Assembly: GCA_902769255.1 (NCBI GenBank)
Contig: CACXOM010000010.1
Coordinates: 36,090-87,046, forward strand
Source of the DNA: Oscillospiraceae bacterium
GTDB taxonomy: Bacteria; Bacillota; Clostridia; Oscillospirales; Acutalibacteraceae
Direction: 5' to 3'
Length of the DNA: 50,957 bases
Shown: positions 553 through 11,839 of the stretch, one piece after another
Layout: the number at the start of each line of letters is the position of its first letter
Position numbering within the stretch: position 1 is the stretch's first letter
Notes under the pieces: model-generated
Told to the model about the DNA's origin: nothing
The model's input: only the letters and a program-made list of their open reading frames with translations
Database searches by the model: none
Translations under genes and position numbers: made by a program

Positions 553-602
553 TTGACAAATGAAAGTAATAGTGTTATACTATACCTACCATATTGATAG
601 GT
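553..602 (+). promoter_or_regulatory. Promoter and palindromic operator of the mccB-mccA unit
   Basis: TTGACA (553-558) and TATACT (576-581) are separated by 17 bp. Immediately downstream, ACCTACCATATTGATAGGT (584-602) is a near-perfect palindrome lying about where transcription would start. Closely related 19-bp sequences sit in the promoters of metY (19836-19854) and lysR-metA (7686-7704). I infer that an Rrf2-type repressor binds here, with the protein encoded at 8729 as the obvious candidate. Confidence 0.8.
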
Positions 603-627: not shown

Positions 628-723
628 ATGAATTTTAAGAATATTACCGCCGAAAAATTTTATATGTGTTGTTGTTTCGCTTGTCGTTTTTCAGGCGGGG
701 CAAATTTGTTGTGTAAAAGTTAA
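628..723 (+). CDS. Cys-rich leader peptide (31 aa) of the mccB-mccA operon
   Basis: A 31-codon ORF lies between the promoter and the first enzyme gene, with a Shine-Dalgarno-like AAAGGCAGG 8 nt upstream of its ATG. The centre of the peptide reads MCCCFACRF: Cys codons 14, 15, 16 and 19 are all TGT, and a further Cys is codon 29. The ORF ends 24 nt before the terminator hairpin at 748-780. Codons 22-24 contain TCAGGCG (691-697), which is the exact complement of CGCCTGA at the start of the terminator's 5' arm. A ribosome waiting at Cys14-Cys16 would leave 691-697 free. I infer a cysteine attenuation leader that senses charged tRNA-Cys rather than a protein with its own job. Confidence 0.85.
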   Translation: MNFKNITAEKFYMCCCFACRFSGGANLLCKS

Positions 724-747
724 ATTACACTAAAATTTAGCGTTATT

Positions 748-790
748 CGCCTGAATTCCGAAGTTTCGGAAATTCGGGCGTTTTTTATTT
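748..790 (+). terminator. Attenuator terminator upstream of mccB-like gene
   Basis: CGCCTGAATTCCGAA (748-762) pairs with TTCGGAAATTCGGGCG (765-780), with one bulged base, and is followed by TTTTTTATTTT. The 5' arm can pair instead with TCAGGCG at 691-697 in the leader ORF, giving mutually exclusive terminator and antiterminator structures. Confidence 0.85.
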
Positions 791-820: not shown

Positions 821-1981
821 ATGTCAAACTACAAAAATATTGATTCAGCATTAATTCACGGAGGAATTTACGGCGACCGCTTCACAGGCGCAGTTAATGT
901 GCCGATTTACCAAACCTCAACCTACGAGCAATCGGGCTTGGGCGAAAACAAAGGGTGGGAATATTCTCGAACAGGTAACCCCACACGTGCAGCGCTTGAA
1001 GCGCTTATTGCCGAACTCGAAGGTGGCTCAAACGGCTTTGCTTTCGGCTCGGGAATGGCGGCAATTACCGCAGTTTTAAGCCTTTTTAAAACAGGCGACA
1101 AAATTATTATTTCAAGCAATGTTTACGGCGGAACTTTTAGAGTGCTTGACAAAGTTTTTAACCATTTCGGCATTACTTATTCAATCGAAAACACCGCCGA
1201 TGTTGGCACTCTCGAAAAGAAAATAACCGAAGATGTTAAGGCGATTTTGATTGAAAGCCCTGCAAATCCGCTACTTAGCATTACCGATATTAAAGCGGTA
1301 GCGCTCCTTGCGAAAAAACACGGCATTTTAACTATTGTTGACAACACTTTTATGACCCCTTATTTGCAACAGCCTATTAAACTCGGTGCTGATATTGTTG
1401 TTCATTCCGCAACAAAATATCTTGGCGGACACAGTGACTTGGTAGCAGGGCTTGCGGTTGTAAACGACAAAGATTTAGCCGAAAAACTCGCCTTTATTCA
1501 AAATTCAACAGGCGGAGTTTTAGGTCCTTTCGACTCGTTTTTGCTTATTCGTGGCATAAAAACGCTCGGTGTCAGAATGGACCGCCACACCGAAAACGCA
1601 CTAAAAGCGGCGCAATTTTTGCTCTCTCACAAGGCGGTTAAAAAGGTTTATTATCCCGGTCTAAAACAAGCGCAAGGCTATGAAATTCACAAAAATCAAG
1701 CCAAAAACGGCGGTGCTATGATTTCTTTTGAACTTTACGAAAACTACGATATTAAAACATTTTTCAAATCGCTCTCGTTAGTGGCGCTCGCCGAAAGTTT
1801 GGGCGGAGTTGAGTCGCTCGTTTGCCACCCAGCAAGTATGACACACGCTTCAATTCCTTACGAAACAAGGCAAAAAATCGGCATTACCGAAGGGCTTATT
1901 CGCTTATCGCTCGGAATTGAAAATATTGACGATATTTTGGCTGATTTAAGTCAGGCAATCCAAAAAAGCGAGGTAAAATAA
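821..1981 (+). CDS. mccB: Cystathionine gamma-lyase/synthase-type PLP enzyme
   Basis: The 386-aa protein belongs to the Cys/Met metabolism PLP family. It has the phosphate-binding region YSRTGNPTR near residue 50, the ASG-like loop FGSGMAAI, the aspartate in VDNTFMTPYL, and the PLP lysine in SATKYLGGH near residue 205. The length fits the MetB/MccB branch rather than the longer MetY. AAGGAG lies 10 nt upstream of the ATG. The next gene is an MccA-like beta-synthase starting 1 bp after the stop, so I favour a reverse-transsulfuration role (cystathionine to cysteine) over gamma-synthase; sequence alone does not exclude gamma-synthase. The gene is controlled by the Cys leader and operator upstream. 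The symbol is by analogy with the Bacillus mccAB pair. Confidence 0.85.
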   Translation: MSNYKNIDSALIHGGIYGDRFTGAVNVPIYQTSTYEQSGLGENKGWEYSRTGNPTRAALEALIAELEGGSNGFAFGSGMAAITAVLSLFKTGDKIIISSNVYGGTFRVLDKVFNHFGITYSIENTADVGTLEKKITEDVKAILIESPANPLLSITDIKAVALLAKKHGILTIVDNTFMTPYLQQPIKLGADIVVHSATKYLGGHSDLVAGLAVVNDKDLAEKLAFIQNSTGGVLGPFDSFLLIRGIKTLGVRMDRHTENALKAAQFLLSHKAVKKVYYPGLKQAQGYEIHKNQAKNGGAMISFELYENYDIKTFFKSLSLVALAESLGGVESLVCHPASMTHASIPYETRQKIGITEGLIRLSLGIENIDDILADLSQAIQKSEVK

Positions 1982-1982
1982 A

Positions 1983-2894
1983 ATGAGTTATTACAATTCA
2001 ATGCAAGAATTAATCGGCAACACGCCTATTGTAAAGCTTAACAATTTAGGTCTGCCCAAAGACGTTAATTTATTTGCAAAACTCGAACTTTACAACCCCG
2101 CCGGTAGCGTTAAAGACAGAGTCGGCAGGGCTATGATTGAAGATGCAGAAAGAAAAGGCGTTTTGAAAAAAGGCGGTACAATTATTGAGGGAACGGCAGG
2201 CAACACGGGGCTTGGCATTGCGTTTGCCGCTTTAAACAAAGGTTACAGAGTAATTTTTGTTGTGCCGACTAAATTTTCCGTTGAGAAGCAAACGCTAATG
2301 CGCGCGCTCGGCGCCGAAATTATTAACACGCCAAGAGAAGAGGGAATGCTTGGTGCGGCGAAGCGTGCCGAAGAATTAAAATCGCAAATTCCAAACGCCG
2401 TTTCGCTAAAACAATTTGAAAATCCCGCTAATCCTTTGGCGCATTACCAAACCACCGGCAAAGAGATTTACGACGATTTAGAGGGCAAAATCGACTATGC
2501 GGTTTTGGGCGCAGGCAGCGGCGGTACTTATTCGGGCGTTTTGAAATATTTGAAAGAAAAAAATCCTAAAATCAAAGGCGTTTTGGCTGACCCTGTCGGC
2601 TCGACAATGGGCGGTGGTGAGCACGGCGACTATAATATTGAGGGAATCGGCAACGATTTTATCGCAAAAACTATGGATATGTCGTTGGTCGATAAGGTTA
2701 TTAAAATTAATGATGATGACGCTATAAACGGCGCTCGAACGCTCGCAAAAAAAGAGGGAATTTTTGCAGGCTCTTCATCGGGTGCGGCGCTCTCGGCTGC
2801 GCAAAAACTTGTAAATGGCGGAGCGAAAGGCAACATTGTAATTGTTTTGCCCGACAGGGGCGACCGCTATTTTAGCAAAAATCTTTATGAATAA
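1983..2894 (+). CDS. mccA: O-acetylserine-dependent cystathionine beta-synthase / cysteine synthase family
   Basis: This 303-aa fold-type II PLP enzyme carries the PLP lysine in NPAGSVKDRVG near residue 44 and the C-terminal phosphate-side motif GSSSGAA. The asparagine loop reads EGTAGNTG, not the EPTSGNTG typical of CysK. Together with VPTKFSVEKQTLMRALGAE, the EGIG motif, and the RYFSKNLYE terminus, this resembles Bacillus MccA (YrhA), which condenses O-acetylserine with homocysteine. I therefore call it MccA-like, with plain cysteine synthase as the alternative. It follows the gamma-lyase gene by 1 bp in the same operon, so together they would move sulfur from homocysteine to cysteine. A structured terminator follows. 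Confidence 0.82.
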   Translation: MSYYNSMQELIGNTPIVKLNNLGLPKDVNLFAKLELYNPAGSVKDRVGRAMIEDAERKGVLKKGGTIIEGTAGNTGLGIAFAALNKGYRVIFVVPTKFSVEKQTLMRALGAEIINTPREEGMLGAAKRAEELKSQIPNAVSLKQFENPANPLAHYQTTGKEIYDDLEGKIDYAVLGAGSGGTYSGVLKYLKEKNPKIKGVLADPVGSTMGGGEHGDYNIEGIGNDFIAKTMDMSLVDKVIKINDDDAINGARTLAKKEGIFAGSSSGAALSAAQKLVNGGAKGNIVIVLPDRGDRYFSKNLYE

Positions 2895-5641: not shown

Positions 5642-6574
5642 TTAAATGTAATATAAATCATTATTTTGATAAAGTTCAAACGGGGTTTTTTGATAAACAT
5701 AATAATTAAGCCAATTTGAAAAAAGCAAGTTTGCGTGCCCACGCCAACGGGCTTTCGGTTTTTTCTCAATATCGTCATCGGGAAAATAATTAATCGGCAA
5801 ATCGGGGTCAAGCCCTTTTTCCAAATCTCTGAAATATTCCTTTTTCAGCCTGTTTGCGCTATATTCGGGGTGCCCGTTTACAAAAACACGGCGGTTTTCT
5901 TTGTCAACCACAAGATAAGCGCCTGCAAACGGCGAAGAAGCCAAAATTTCAAGTTCTTTGTGCTTTAAAATCTCTTCGTTGCGAATACCTGTGTACCTCG
6001 AATGAGGTGCGTAAAACTCGTCATCAAAACCACGAGTCAACTCCTCTTTTTTATTTTTTAATTTATGCTTGTAAACGCCGAAAAGTTTTTTAGAAAACTT
6101 GTATTTTTGTATGCCGTAATGATAATAAAGCCCTGCTTGCGAAGCCCAGCAAATATACATTGTAGAGGTTACATTTTTTTGCGCCCAATCAATAATATTT
6201 GTCAACTCTTCCCAATAATCAACCTGCTCAAATTCCAAATTTTCAACCGGCGCACCTGTGATAATAAGCCCGTCAAAAAAGTCGTCTTTTATCTGCGAAA
6301 ACGATTTATAATAGTTTTTCAAATAATCTCTTGAAACGAGTTTATATTTGTGCGAATCAAGCCGAATAAACGTTACTTTTGTTTGTAACGGCGAGTTTGA
6401 AAGCAGCCGCAAAATTTCAAGTTCGGTTGACTCTTTTTCGGGCATTATGTTGATTACCGCAATTTTCAATTCTCTAATATCTTGGTGCTCTGCTCGCTGT
6501 TTTTCCATAATAAAAATATTCTCTTTTTCAAGCCTTTTTGCAACAGGCATTGTCTCATCAATTCTAATCGGCAT
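5642..6574 (-). CDS. metA: Homoserine O-acyltransferase MetA, probably acetyl-CoA-specific
   Basis: The protein is 310 aa with the start chosen at ATG 6574, because MPIRIDETMPVAKRL aligns with the family N terminus; an in-frame GTG at 6583 is less likely. The nucleophile Cys142 lies in YICWASQAGLYYHYG, and the His of NGHPEYSANRL follows the usual order. Residue 111 is Glu (GAPVEN). In this family Glu111 goes with acetyl-CoA use, whereas E. coli has Gly111 and uses succinyl-CoA. The product would be O-acetylhomoserine, the substrate of MetY encoded at 18307. The start overlaps the end of the LysR gene by 11 nt, so the two are probably translationally coupled. Confidence 0.92.
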   Translation of the reverse strand: MPIRIDETMPVAKRLEKENIFIMEKQRAEHQDIRELKIAVINIMPEKESTELEILRLLSNSPLQTKVTFIRLDSHKYKLVSRDYLKNYYKSFSQIKDDFFDGLIITGAPVENLEFEQVDYWEELTNIIDWAQKNVTSTMYICWASQAGLYYHYGIQKYKFSKKLFGVYKHKLKNKKEELTRGFDDEFYAPHSRYTGIRNEEILKHKELEILASSPFAGAYLVVDKENRRVFVNGHPEYSANRLKKEYFRDLEKGLDPDLPINYFPDDDIEKKPKARWRGHANLLFSNWLNYYVYQKTPFELYQNNDLYYI

Positions 6575-7505
6575 TTTCTTCACCGCCTTCTTTTATTCCG
6601 AGATAATTTTTCAACTCTTTTATATAAAGCTTGGCTGTTTTGCTCGGAATTGTATTTTTTCTTGTAATATAGCCAATTTCCATTTTATCTTCTTTTGCGC
6701 CGTTATATTCAAAAGGCACAGCGACAAAGTCGTTTCCGTTTAACTCCTCGCAAATAATGCCCGAGCAAAGCGTGTAACCGTTTAGCCCTATCATCAAATT
6801 AAGCATTGTGGCACGGTCGTTTGCCTTAATTGTTCGGGGGTAGTCATTGGTTGCGAGAATTTCTTCGGCAAGGTAAAAAGCCGAAGTGTCGCCCTGCTCA
6901 AACGAAAGGCAAGGGTAATTTGCCAACTGCTCGAAAGTTATCGATTTTTTACTTGCCAACGGGTGATTTTTCCAAAGATAAACAAAAGCGTTGCAATCAA
7001 TCAGTTTAACAAATTCAAGGTCGGCAGACTTAAGCAATTTTGTAATTGCGCTGCGGTTAAAATCGCTTAAATATAACACGCCTATTTCACTTTTCAGCAT
7101 TTTAACATCTTCAATTACCTCTTTTGTTTTTGTTTCACGAATAGCAAAATCATATTCCGCTGTGTCGAATTTTTTAACCATTTCAACAAAGGCTTTAACC
7201 GCAAAAGAATAGTGTTGGGTTGAAACACCGAATTTCTTTTTCAAAAACTCGCCACCCGAATATTTTTCAAGCAAATTTTCGTAATTTGAATAAATCTCTC
7301 GCGCTTGAATTAAAAATTCAGCGCCGTCAGGCGTAAGCGTAACGCCTTTGCCGTTTCGGTTAAAAATTGTAATGCCGAGTTCTTTTTCAAGCTCTTTAAC
7401 CGAACTCGAAAGCGAGGGTTGTGCAACAAACAAAACCTCCGCCGCCTTGTTCATTGAGCCGACATTTGCAATTGTAATTATATAGTTAAGCTGATTAAGT
7501 GTCAT
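6564..7505 (-). CDS. LysR-family regulator in the metA operon
   Basis: The 313-aa protein has an N-terminal winged helix-turn-helix (LNQLNYIITIANVGSMNKAA...PSLSSSVKELEKELG, residues 3-45) and a LysR substrate-binding domain from about residue 90. The effector is unknown. Co-transcription with metA, behind a Cys/Met-rich leader, suggests it senses an intermediate of sulfur amino acid metabolism such as O-acetylserine or homocysteine; this is inference. AGGAGG lies 8 nt upstream of the ATG, just after the attenuator hairpin. Confidence 0.85.
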   Translation of the reverse strand: MTLNQLNYIITIANVGSMNKAAEVLFVAQPSLSSSVKELEKELGITIFNRNGKGVTLTPDGAEFLIQAREIYSNYENLLEKYSGGEFLKKKFGVSTQHYSFAVKAFVEMVKKFDTAEYDFAIRETKTKEVIEDVKMLKSEIGVLYLSDFNRSAITKLLKSADLEFVKLIDCNAFVYLWKNHPLASKKSITFEQLANYPCLSFEQGDTSAFYLAEEILATNDYPRTIKANDRATMLNLMIGLNGYTLCSGIICEELNGNDFVAVPFEYNGAKEDKMEIGYITRKNTIPSKTAKLYIKELKNYLGIKEGGEENAD

Positions 7506-7520
7506 AATAAAAACCTCCTA

Positions 7521-7552
7521 AAAATAAAAAGAAACCGCAATTTTTGCGGTTT
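7521..7552 (-). terminator. Attenuator terminator upstream of lysR-metA
   Basis: On the minus strand AAACCGCAA pairs with TTGCGGTTT (7532-7552), followed by CTTTTTATTTT. The 5' arm AAACCGCA can pair instead with TGCGGTTT (7629-7622) inside the leader ORF, which repeats the sequence of the terminator's 3' arm. Confidence 0.8.
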
Positions 7553-7585: not shown

Positions 7586-7681
7586 TTATTTCTGCGCCGA
7601 AACAGACGGTGCCGTTTTATTAAACCGCATCATCTTGCACATACAACACATTATAAATGAAGATGTAATAACTTTCATCAT
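7586..7681 (-). CDS. Cys/Met-rich leader peptide (31 aa) of the lysR-metA operon
   Basis: The 31-codon ORF lies between a consensus promoter and an intrinsic terminator. Its core is IMCCMCKMMRF: Met11, Cys12, Cys13, Met14, Cys15, Lys16, Met17, Met18. A modest AGGTAGG lies just upstream of the double ATG, and the second ATG at 7678 has the better spacing. Codons 18-20 contain TGCGGTTT (7629-7622), able to pair with the terminator's 5' arm. A ribosome stalled at Cys12 or Cys13 would leave that segment exposed. The geometry matches the mccB leader. I infer attenuation in response to charged tRNA-Cys and/or tRNA-Met. Confidence 0.82.
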   Translation of the reverse strand: MMKVITSSFIMCCMCKMMRFNKTAPSVSAQK

Positions 7682-7685
7682 AATT

Positions 7686-7740
7686 ACCTACCTAAATTAT
7701 AAGTTTAATTCATTATATACCACAAATTTTGTTTTGTCAA
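7686..7740 (-). promoter_or_regulatory. Promoter and operator-like site of the lysR-metA unit
   Basis: On the minus strand TTGACA (7740-7735) and TATAAT (7717-7712) are exactly 17 bp apart. Just downstream lies ACCTACCTAAATTATAAGT (7686-7704, plus-strand reading), which matches the mccB operator in 14 of 19 positions and also supplies the leader's AGGTAGG. Confidence 0.78.
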
Positions 7741-8728: not shown

Positions 8729-9139
8729 ATGAAAATTTCTACAAAAGGGCGTTATGCGCTTAGAATGATGATAGATTTAGCGCTTGAAGGTGGCGACGGT
8801 TTTGTTGCTCTTAAAGATATTGCGAAAAGGCAGAATATTTCAAAAAAATATCTTGAGCAAATTATGCCTATTTTAAACCGAACCGATTTTTTGGTTACAA
8901 ACAGAGGTTATCAGGGCGGTTACAAGCTTTCAAGAAAGCCGAGCGAATATTCAGTCGGCGAAATTTTAAGAGTGAGCGAGGGCAATTTAAGCCCTGTTGC
9001 TTGTCTTGATGTTAAGCCGAACCGTTGCGAGCGAAAAGATTTTTGCTTAACTTTGCCTGTTTGGGAGGGGCTTGAAAAGGTTATTGAAAATTACCTTGAC
9101 AACATAACATTGCAAGACATTATTGATAAAAATGTATAG
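8729..9139 (+). CDS. Rrf2-family transcriptional regulator (CymR/IscR type)
   Basis: The 136-aa protein opens MKISTKGRYALRMMIDLA, the Rrf2 hallmark, with a winged helix covering residues 1-70 (ISKKYLEQIMPIL, GYQGGYKLSR). Three cysteines, Cys92, Cys100 and Cys106, sit where IscR has its iron-sulfur ligands (C92, C98, C104). Bacillus CymR lacks this triad and instead controls sulfur genes through CysK. This protein could therefore read iron-sulfur status, cysteine status, or both. Its position among sulfur genes with related promoter palindromes makes it my candidate regulator for them. A terminator follows. Confidence 0.88.
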   Translation: MKISTKGRYALRMMIDLALEGGDGFVALKDIAKRQNISKKYLEQIMPILNRTDFLVTNRGYQGGYKLSRKPSEYSVGEILRVSEGNLSPVACLDVKPNRCERKDFCLTLPVWEGLEKVIENYLDNITLQDIIDKNV

Positions 9140-10424: not shown

Positions 10425-10717
10425 ACATAAACGAAAAACCGAAGAAGATGAGTAAGTAACTTTTTATTCGTTTTTTAGAGAGTCGGCGGTTGGTGTAAGG
10501 CGACAAACGGGTATTTAGCGAATGGACATCTGAGGGTGACCGAAAGCCTAATTTGGCGAGTAGCAGTCAACGGGAACAATCTGCACCCGTTATCAAAGCA
10601 GACTTGTATGTTAGTACAAGACAGAGCGGATACATTTTTAAGTATCAACTTGGGTGGTACCGCAGGAATTTTTGATTTAACTCCTGTCCCTTGAAATTTC
10701 AAGGGACAGGTTTTTTT
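10425..10717 (+). ncRNA. T-box riboswitch leader, tryptophan-type
   Basis: The leader contains the invariant T-box GGGTGGTACCGC (10652-10663) in an antiterminator context. It is followed by an intrinsic terminator, CCTGTCCCTT/AAGGGACAGG (10683-10710) with seven T. Upstream, stem I runs from about 10475, and the likely specifier is TGG in GAATGGACAT (10523-10525), which reads as tryptophan. The downstream genes (TrpXYZ-type transporter and TrpB2) fit that reading. Uncharged tRNA-Trp would stabilise the antiterminator and turn the operon on. The specifier was picked by eye and is less certain than the T-box itself. Confidence 0.9.
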
Positions 10718-10852: not shown

Positions 10853-11839
10853 ATGAAAAAAATATTAGCATTACTTTTAACATTAACATTAGCATTTTGC
10901 TTTGCTTCTTGCACAGATAATAAAGATAATAAAAACACAGACAAAACTTACAAAATCGGCATTATTCAATATTTAAGCCACCCTTCACTTGACAACTGCT
11001 ATAACGGTATTATTAAAGGACTTGACGAGTCCGGCATAAAATATGAAGTTGATTATCAAACAGGCTCTTCTGCCTCACCTGATGCCGACTGCACAAACTT
11101 TGCTAAAAAACAAGTTAGCGACGGCGTTGATATGATTTTTGCAATCGCAACACCTGCCGCTCAATCTGCTTATAACGCAACTGCCGATACAGATATTCCT
11201 GTTATTTTCTGCGCAGTTTCTGACCCGAAAGCAGCTAAACTTGTAAAATCTAACGAAAACCCCGGCTCGCTTTGCACAGGTACTTCTGATGTACTCGACC
11301 TTTCGGCACAGATTGATTTAATTCAGGCAATGCAAAAAGAAGTTAAAAAAATAGGTATTCTTTATACCGCTTCTGAGGCAAATTCGGTAGCACACCTTAA
11401 AGAATTTAAAAAGATTTGTGATGAAAGAAAACTTACAGTTGTTGATAAAGCGGTAAACAACGCTTCTGACATTCCTTCGGCAGCCGAAGATTTGGCGGCA
11501 CAGGTTGACTGCATTAACAACTTTACTGACAACAATGTTGTAAACAACTTAAAAGTTGTATTAAAAGCCGCTCAAAACCACAAAATTCCTGTTTACGGCT
11601 CGGAAGAAGAACAGGTTAAAAACGGTTGTTTAGCATCTGTTTCAATCGACTATTTAGCACTCGGCAAAGTTACCGGTAAAATGGGCGCCGATGTTTTAGG
11701 CGGAAAAGATGCTACTACTATGGCAGTTAAAACAATTACCGATGCTACACCGGTTGTAAACACCGATGTTTTAAAAACTCTTGGTATGAAAATGCCAAAA
11801 AATTATTCAAACGCACAAACAGTTACTACCAACAAATAA
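10853..11839 (+). CDS. trpX: ABC transporter substrate-binding lipoprotein, tryptophan-type
   Basis: The 328-aa protein has a lipoprotein signal (LAFCFASC, Cys20) and an ABC_sub_bind (PF04392) fold from YKIGIIQYLSHPSLD onward. AIATPAAQSA, FCAVSDPKAAKLV and the GSEEEQVKNG region are typical of the family. It lies under a Trp T-box with a permease, an ATPase and TrpB2, so I assign tryptophan (or indole-related) uptake in the TrpXYZ sense. It is followed 15 bp later by the permease gene. The name rests on regulation and context, not on ligand residues. Confidence 0.85.
   Translation: MKKILALLLTLTLAFCFASCTDNKDNKNTDKTYKIGIIQYLSHPSLDNCYNGIIKGLDESGIKYEVDYQTGSSASPDADCTNFAKKQVSDGVDMIFAIATPAAQSAYNATADTDIPVIFCAVSDPKAAKLVKSNENPGSLCTGTSDVLDLSAQIDLIQAMQKEVKKIGILYTASEANSVAHLKEFKKICDERKLTVVDKAVNNASDIPSAAEDLAAQVDCINNFTDNNVVNNLKVVLKAAQNHKIPVYGSEEEQVKNGCLASVSIDYLALGKVTGKMGADVLGGKDATTMAVKTITDATPVVNTDVLKTLGMKMPKNYSNAQTVTTNK

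Follow-up and report, generated by a model that had tools for sequence, protein, structure and literature searches.

The stretch of DNA analysed here (50,957 nucleotides, referred to as the window) carries a pair of genes resembling mccB and mccA, placed behind a short open reading frame rich in cysteine codons, and the question raised by this locus is whether that frame and the terminator that follows it act together as a switch through which the supply of charged tRNA-Cys sets expression of the pair. Based on sequence and folding, our answer, to which we give a probability of about 0.9, is that the element is a predicted ribosome-mediated transcription attenuator sensing charged tRNA-Cys, and possibly also tRNA-Met by way of neighbouring Met codons.

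Parts and predicted folding of the leader

From the promoter to the second gene, the locus is composed of the following features.

553..581 (+): sigma-70-type promoter, TTGACA, 17-nt spacer and TATACT with an extended TG; from the promoter scan, kept in L006 and L007
585..601 (+): operator-like dyad CCTA-N9-TAGG (CCTACCATATTGATAGG), directly after the -10 element; from a sequence search
628..723 (+): 31-codon leader ORF MNFKNITAEKFYMCCCFACRFSGGANLLCKS, with Cys codons at 667-675, 682-684 and 712-714; kept in two relatives of the genus
673..702 (+): protector (1:2) hairpin, 673-683 (the Cys-codon segment) with 692-702; predicted fold
690..755 (+): antiterminator, 690-699 with 746-755, inner helices 700-707 with 733-741; predicted fold
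748..786 (+): intrinsic terminator, hairpin 748-780 (CGCCTGAATTCCGAAGTTTCGGAAATTCGGGCG) and then a TTTTTT run; sequence and fold
821..1981 (+): mccB-like gene, PLP enzyme of Cys/Met metabolism (cystathionine gamma-lyase/synthase type); scores under the cut-offs of the displayed NCBIfam models
1983..2894 (+): mccA-like gene, PALP enzyme of the cysteine synthase / cystathionine beta-synthase type; likewise under the cut-offs of the displayed NCBIfam models

An earlier note on this DNA had claimed a promoter, an ORF with a ribosome site and an intrinsic terminator, and all three were recovered. The promoter is made of TTGACA at 553-558 and TATACT at 576-581, with 11 of 12 consensus matches; the scan is weak by itself, as 4 kb yielded 10 promoter-like sites vs 7.8 in shuffles, and the site at 553-581 ties for its best score and is conserved in relatives. 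The ORF starts with ATG at 628, behind an AGGAAA ribosome site at approximately 617-622, and has five Cys in 30 codons (binomial p ~5e-5, for a window Cys frequency of 0.0134 that derives from greedily called ORFs). The hairpin at 748-780 folds at -20.2 kcal/mol (z -4.0); because of a bulge in its stem it was absent from the output of a simple terminator scan, which did contain a hairpin at 672-703. The mccB-mccA pair is preceded by a ribosome site of its own. By sequence, therefore, the leader has the promoter, the translatable ORF with a ribosome site, the Cys run (CCCFAC) and the terminator before the first gene that are looked for in an attenuator, and in predicted folding its antiterminator is exclusive with the terminator and available when a ribosome sits on the control codons. 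Four things had escaped the earlier reading: the Cys-codon hairpin, the operator-like dyad, another such leader 7 kb away and, in relatives, the Met codons that lie beside the Cys runs. A block, cttcggcgggtcgggttcctacacgacccctaca, was also seen by eye to be present twice upstream of the leader, at about 125-163 and 485-523 of the window.

The leader RNA from 664 to 790 has a minimum free energy of -40.1 kcal/mol (z -5.5), which none of 200 shuffles equalled, and in its fold 673-683 is paired with 692-702 and the terminator is formed. When the Cys segment and the 3' arm of the terminator were removed, 690-699 was predicted to pair with 746-755. The complementarity between TCAGGCG (691-697) and CGCCTGA (748-754), on which the earlier note had built its antiterminator, is indeed exact, but the pairing was underestimated, as it actually extends over 690-699/746-755 and is continued by the inner helices. 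The longest exact complement between the leader and the 5' arm of the terminator is 8 nt, a length reached by 5 of 2000 shuffles.

We then took as a measure of pairing the strength with which the terminator 5' arm is captured by the RNA downstream of a ribosome placed at a given codon. By this measure the antiterminator scores -12.5 kcal/mol for a ribosome at Cys15, a strength that 1 of 500 shuffles attained, and -10.2 kcal/mol for one at Cys14 (12 of 500), while it falls to -3.7 at Cys19, to -5.5 at the stop and to -7.9 kcal/mol on ribosome-free RNA. These values are in line with the proposal that a ribosome at Cys14-16 frees the complement, given that predicted capture is strong there and much weaker at Cys19 and at the stop. 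The protector hairpin is present in the predicted fold, and its predicted effect is modest in the window, judging from the ribosome-free value against the stalled one.

For comparison, the same script was applied to six E. coli K-12 leaders (thr, trp, his, leu, phe and ilv). Their stalled values, taken at the best codon of each run, range from -8.4 to -14.9 kcal/mol, against 0 to -3.3 with the ribosome at the stop and -0.4 to -3.7 without one. The stalled value of the window lies inside this range, whereas its stop and ribosome-free values are stronger than those of the controls, and termination may thus be leaky. Equilibrium folding with a stalled ribosome gives the terminator a probability of 0.97 in the window and of 0.86-0.96 in the six controls; since equilibrium favours the terminator throughout, the model requires a kinetic choice in window and controls, made during co-transcriptional folding. 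Equilibrium folding was consequently dropped as the sole test, as it predicts termination for the window and for the E. coli controls alike.

In the mechanism that we propose, a ribosome amply supplied with Cys-tRNA would pass the Cys codons and proceed to the stop, where it would cover or clear region 2, and the terminator would form. With Cys-tRNA scarce, the ribosome would stall at Cys14-16 and open the 1:2 hairpin, upon which the freed region 2 (690-699) would capture the 5' arm of the terminator (746-755) and polymerase would read into mccB-mccA, genes of families that make cysteine from homocysteine. We infer the response of the leader to cysteine from this predicted folding.

The earlier note had named a lack of conservation of the ORF or of the pairing as one outcome that would speak against attenuation; looked at in the genus, both are kept in two relatives. 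A match to mccB was found in two of the three other genomes of the genus, the third (G001) giving none at the cut-off, and the leaders of these two relatives (L006 and L007), with start codons picked by ribosome-site score, read MKNNKFTTVKLNMCCCFACVSGGTDLLCKK and MKFYNITAEKFNMCCCFACICSGEADLLC. Both keep the Cys codons (CCCFAC), region 2 (as TCAGGCG or TCGGGCG) and region 3 (CGCCTGA), as well as the terminator, the promoter and both ribosome sites, while the spacer and the terminator loop vary. CCCxxC matches 17 places in the window's own genome. Besides the mccB leader, these comprise 16 that either coincide with long ORFs or have a run preceded by no start codon.

Cysteine-codon leaders before mccB operons of other bacteria

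At the cut-offs used, matches were found in 23 of 398 genomes of the family and in 42 of 391 of the class, 30 of the latter 42 giving loci; a one-genome-per-species scan contributed its best 80 loci of more. The operon consists of mccB-mccA alone or begins with a methyltransferase gene (Pfam LCM), in some cases also with luxS. The earlier note had suggested looking for short ORFs with Cys runs upstream of mccB, and such ORFs are enriched there: among 125 operons, 44 had an ORF with at least four Cys in seven codons within 300 nt upstream of the first recognised gene, compared to 4 of 171 regions upstream of other genes in the same loci and 1 of 125 opposite strands. Putting Leu, a common residue, in place of Cys gave 23 of 125.

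A terminator accompanies the Cys-run ORF in 43 of these 44 regions (the exception being L093) and was found in 18 of the 81 operons without such a run. Ten of the 18 do have a Cys ORF, but one with fewer Cys or one whose start is lost at the contig end (L015, L026, L040, L058, L083, L125, L131, L135, L136 and L141); among the remaining eight, L127 has a T-box and seven have neither (L027, L043, L053, L056, L078, L111 and L126). In the other 63 operons no terminator was found in the 300 nt, and in many of them the first recognised gene follows without intergenic space (31 of 107 in an earlier set). In 20 loci lacking a clear Cys leader, the sole Rfam hit was a cobalamin riboswitch of L032, which lies on the minus strand, far downstream of mccB.

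For the analyses below, two loci with <55% identity and the 31 of 107 loci short of intergenic sequence were left out, and the other 76 loci supplied 44 leaders having both a Cys run and a terminator. Taking out L093, whose ORF overlaps the hairpin, and adding by hand eight leaders from the class level gave a set of 51, from which L066 and four near-duplicates were removed to obtain a non-redundant set of 46. Going by record titles, which are fallible (L042 is titled Alphaproteobacteria, and L040, titled Clostridiales, has a Fibrobacter-like leader), the leaders come from Ruminococcus, other Clostridia, Fibrobacter and Treponema; the records are mostly MAGs. The strict cut holds six Fibrobacter-titled records (L036, L038, L044, L045, L047 and L068) and one titled Treponema (L030), and the named strains with leaders include R. 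bromii YE282 (L016) and R. flavefaciens ND2009 (L059). The records nearest to the window are titled Ruminococcus and Clostridiales. In the 51 leaders the Cys codons are TGT 202 times and TGC 71 times; in the window's long ORFs, greedily called, TGC is counted 134 times and TGT 64.

In the 46 leaders, which were preselected for a Cys run and a terminator, capture has a median of -10.1 kcal/mol when the ribosome stands on the first Cys of the run; the ribosome-free median is -5.1 and that at the stop -1.6. Capture is stronger when stalled than at the stop in 46 of 46, although a ribosome at the stop leaves less RNA free, which makes this difference in part trivial; it is stronger when stalled than on ribosome-free RNA in 42 of 46, and this difference is not trivial because here more RNA pairs less, as the protector hairpin predicts. 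The antiterminator pairing, for which the earlier note had put forward a check of covariation, was examined by a swap of terminator arms among the 46 leaders, in which a leader captured its own arm better on average than a foreign one (mean -9.35 vs -5.66, permutation p 5e-5), even though the own arm was the best in only 9 of 46 and among the top three in 16 of 46. Shuffling 44 leaders left at most 3 of 60 shuffles as strong in 22 of them and more than 3 of 60 in the other 22 (including L093, which could not be scored). Weak antiterminators, and a poor fit to the model, are seen in L049, L057, L063, L076 and L085. In L021 and L023, GAC stands where relatives have GGC, a change that turns a G-U into an A-U pair, altering the peptide but keeping the pairing.

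Met codons, the lysR-metA leader and the operator-like dyad

The Met codons that accompany many of the Cys runs raise the possibility that the leader senses cysteine and methionine together through interleaved codons, with mccB working in either direction of transsulfuration, a reading that we regard as conceivable but rather improbable. That more than one amino acid can be sensed by a leader is known from ilvL, which senses three. Of 115 non-Cys residues within the Cys cluster or immediately following it, 27 are Met, vs 46 of 1137 elsewhere (Fisher p 1e-11, an optimistic value, as related leaders are counted repeatedly); Met lies just before the cluster in 22 of the 51 leaders and in or next to it in 32. 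The other 19 have no Met in or next to the cluster, however, and the window's own mccB leader, apart from its start codon, has just one Met, immediately ahead of the run. Moreover, induction by low Met of a pathway leading from Met to Cys would make little sense unless the enzyme works forward.

Mixed codons are found elsewhere in the window, where a second leader precedes a LysR-type regulator gene and metA:

7712..7740 (-): promoter-like sequence, TTGACA at 7740-7735, 17 nt, TATAAT at 7717-7712 (consensus-like); by eye
7687..7703 (unstranded): copy of the dyad with one mismatch; dyad search
7586..7681 (-): second leader ORF MMKVITSSFIMCCMCKMMRFNKTAPSVSAQK, containing MCCMCKMM; kept in G002 as MKDIKTYFIMCCMCKMMRFKTYAPSVSAYK
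7532..7552 (-): terminator hairpin of the second leader, whose 5' arm pairs with GCGGTTT in the leader ORF; fold
6564..7505 (-): LysR-type regulator gene, first behind the second leader
5642..6583 (-): metA, homoserine O-acyltransferase

The terminator hairpin of this leader reaches only -9.7 kcal/mol, and its antiterminator is predicted at -10.2 kcal/mol with the ribosome at the first Cys, a strength that 0 of 500 shuffles equalled. The run MCCMCKMM speaks for dual sensing, but the antiterminator has already been lost (about 0 to -1 kcal/mol) at the Met codons that follow the Cys run, so these would not induce.

A search for MCCxC in four genomes of the genus gave 8 places, including the lysR-metA leader in the window's genome (G000) and in G002; of the others, five overlap long ORFs, and one free ORF in G001 (L272) has no terminator. 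The lysR gene had no match at the cut-off in G001 and G003. In G002, the lysR gene behind the conserved second leader (L237) has one in-frame stop codon, which may be a MAG error or decay. Upstream of metA in 30 loci of the class, a credible Cys leader was found in one, the window itself; two further metA loci with three Cys in seven codons have no terminator, and the only other lysR-metA pair among the 30 (L275) has a terminator and no Cys ORF. No Cys leader was found upstream of cysE in 23 loci, some of whose reading frames are not clearly cysE. LysR genes of the same type lie within 160 nt after mccA in 8 of 30 loci (L241, L245, L246, L252-L255 and L260).

Of the dyad found at the mccB leader, the second leader has only a copy with one mismatch. 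Within 110 nt upstream of the leader ORF, the exact CCTA-N9-TAGG is present in 18 of 51 cases vs 17 of 2040 random 110-mers from the same loci, and with at most one mismatch in 33 of 51 vs 44 of 2040. Part of this enrichment may be due to the promoter, given that in some leaders the dyad overlaps the -35 element as CCTATTGACATAGTAGG, the inner part of which is promoter sequence. In the window, the dyad with up to one mismatch has 10 sites vs 7.4 expected, a count that is weak alone. The extended form, ACCTA-N9-TAGGT, occurs once in each of G002 and G003, at the mccB leader. The window's own genome likewise has it at the mccB leader and once more inside a transketolase-like gene (named by eye), an occurrence that names no second target. 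LysR-type sites follow T-N11-A and Rrf2-type sites CC-N13-GG, and the spacing of the dyad fits both, making it a candidate operator and suggesting a second control at the level of the promoter. An Rrf2-family regulator gene lies near sulfur genes at 8729-9139 (+), above the Rrf2 superfamily cut-off, with the IscR and CymR models below theirs.

T-boxes, other readings and known attenuators

A T-box was considered for the window leader and rejected, as the covariance model had no match at 560-860; an Rfam search of the leader likewise gave no match. Searched as a whole, the window has a T-box only at 10433-10694. This one (+, 97 bits) lies upstream of an ABC-transporter-like gene set starting at 10853, and its specifier, UGG by eye, suggests tryptophan. 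In six of 20 clostridial loci searched, on the other hand, the mccB operon is headed by a T-box. In L127 it stands immediately ahead of mccB, and in L128, L132, L133, L138 and L139 ahead of a gene of 209-259 codons abutting mccB; by eye, all six have UGC, a Cys codon, at or one base after the conserved GAA. The cysE gene of the window's own genome (L170, contig C6 near 52416-52898, minus strand) is preceded by a T-box match of 76 bits (E 5e-15), below the Rfam cut-off of 93, with TGC in the place of the specifier by eye. Taken with the Cys leader of mccB, this match means that the genome appears to read tRNA-Cys by two mechanisms, a leader peptide and a T-box.

These findings could be joined into a regulon for sulfur amino acids extending over Clostridia, Fibrobacter and Treponema, in which leaders of mixed Cys and Met codons would control reverse transsulfuration and, in this genus, lysR-metA, a dyad with T-N11-A spacing would be shared, and cysE would keep a T-box of its own. 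We offer this only tentatively, at slightly less than even odds; our estimates for the regulon and for the sensing of two amino acids are both somewhat lowered by the position of the second genomic copy of the extended dyad within a gene and by the absence of a Cys ORF from the other lysR-metA pair.

A different use of the Cys-rich ORF is suggested by Actinobacteria, where Cys-run leader ORFs precede cys/cbs operons, with the run near the stop and no conserved terminator, and where mycobacterial Cys-rich uORFs are described as cysteine-responsive attenuators, likewise without conserved terminators, according to PMC1262725. By analogy, the nascent peptide in our leaders could itself arrest the ribosome, or the ORF could couple translation, with no role for the terminator or for tRNA charging; we consider this very improbable, as an intrinsic terminator stands between ORF and gene in 43 of the 44 cases and the peptides diverge widely outside the Cys run. 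Arrest peptides, unlike the Cys leaders, are not known to be so widely divergent in sequence. A 2020 title by Canestrari reportedly has the mycobacterial polycysteine uORFs leaderless; the window leader differs in having a ribosome site and the terminator at 748-780. Least credible of all is a terminator that acts constitutively or ends a transcript coming from upstream, combined with a Cys ORF that encodes a small functional cysteine-rich protein or arose by chance, a view that the strength of the terminator at equilibrium would fit but that is opposed by the enrichment of Cys runs over matched controls, the outcome of the arm swap, the promoter directly upstream and the T-box that heads the operon in relatives.

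Attenuation by a ribosome stalled on Cys codons thus remains our preferred reading, and it has known counterparts. With the trp, his, thr, leu, phe and ilv attenuators of E. coli the window shares a leader ORF with runs of codons for the end product, an antiterminator, a terminator and the range of stalled energies; it differs in its codon, Cys, in its clostridial host and in an operon thought to make cysteine from homocysteine, and its stop and ribosome-free states are less clean. The idea of a Cys transcription attenuator is itself already known: excerpts of PMC8632094 describe the uORFC-8-2 motif of cysS in Rhodobacterales, where the Cys codons are usually at positions 14-15 of the uORF and a U run is consistent with an intrinsic terminator, and ribosome-mediated attenuation is predicted. 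As described there, that motif is found in Alphaproteobacteria before a cysteinyl-tRNA synthetase gene and has two Cys codons, whereas the window leader precedes an mccB-like gene in Clostridia. Leader peptides in place of T-boxes are also described for His attenuators of Firmicutes, including Peptostreptococcaceae, in excerpts of PMC2965389 and PMC9413887; these are found in Gram-positives, like the window leader, but carry histidine codons and precede his genes. For the ubiG-mccB-mccA operon of C. acetobutylicum, excerpts of PMC9943018 describe conversion of methionine to cysteine and S-box control.

T-box-controlled operons of the ubiG-mccB-mccA type have the same kinds of genes as the window, but in them the tRNA binds the RNA directly, with no leader peptide. 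T-box control of this operon in C. acetobutylicum is reportedly the subject of a 2008 title by Andre. Among the matches listed in our search of the open-access literature, none dealt with attenuators of the Cys-leader type, whether in front of mccB operons or in Clostridia, Fibrobacter or Treponema; as far as that literature was searched, the host groups, the target pathway, the mixed codons and the exchange with the T-box are new.

If the proposed mechanism is true, Clostridia and several rumen phyla would have a leader peptide that reads cysteine in organisms where T-boxes are the textbook solution, and one signal, charged tRNA-Cys, would be read by two machines in one genome. Similar predicted switches precede the same genes in many gut and rumen bacteria. 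Many small Cys-rich ORFs would be explained, and a handle would be gained on cysteine regulation in Ruminococcus bromii, R. flavefaciens and Fibrobacter. Such a mechanism depends on the coupling of transcription to translation, and its presence would therefore bear on coupling in these bacteria.
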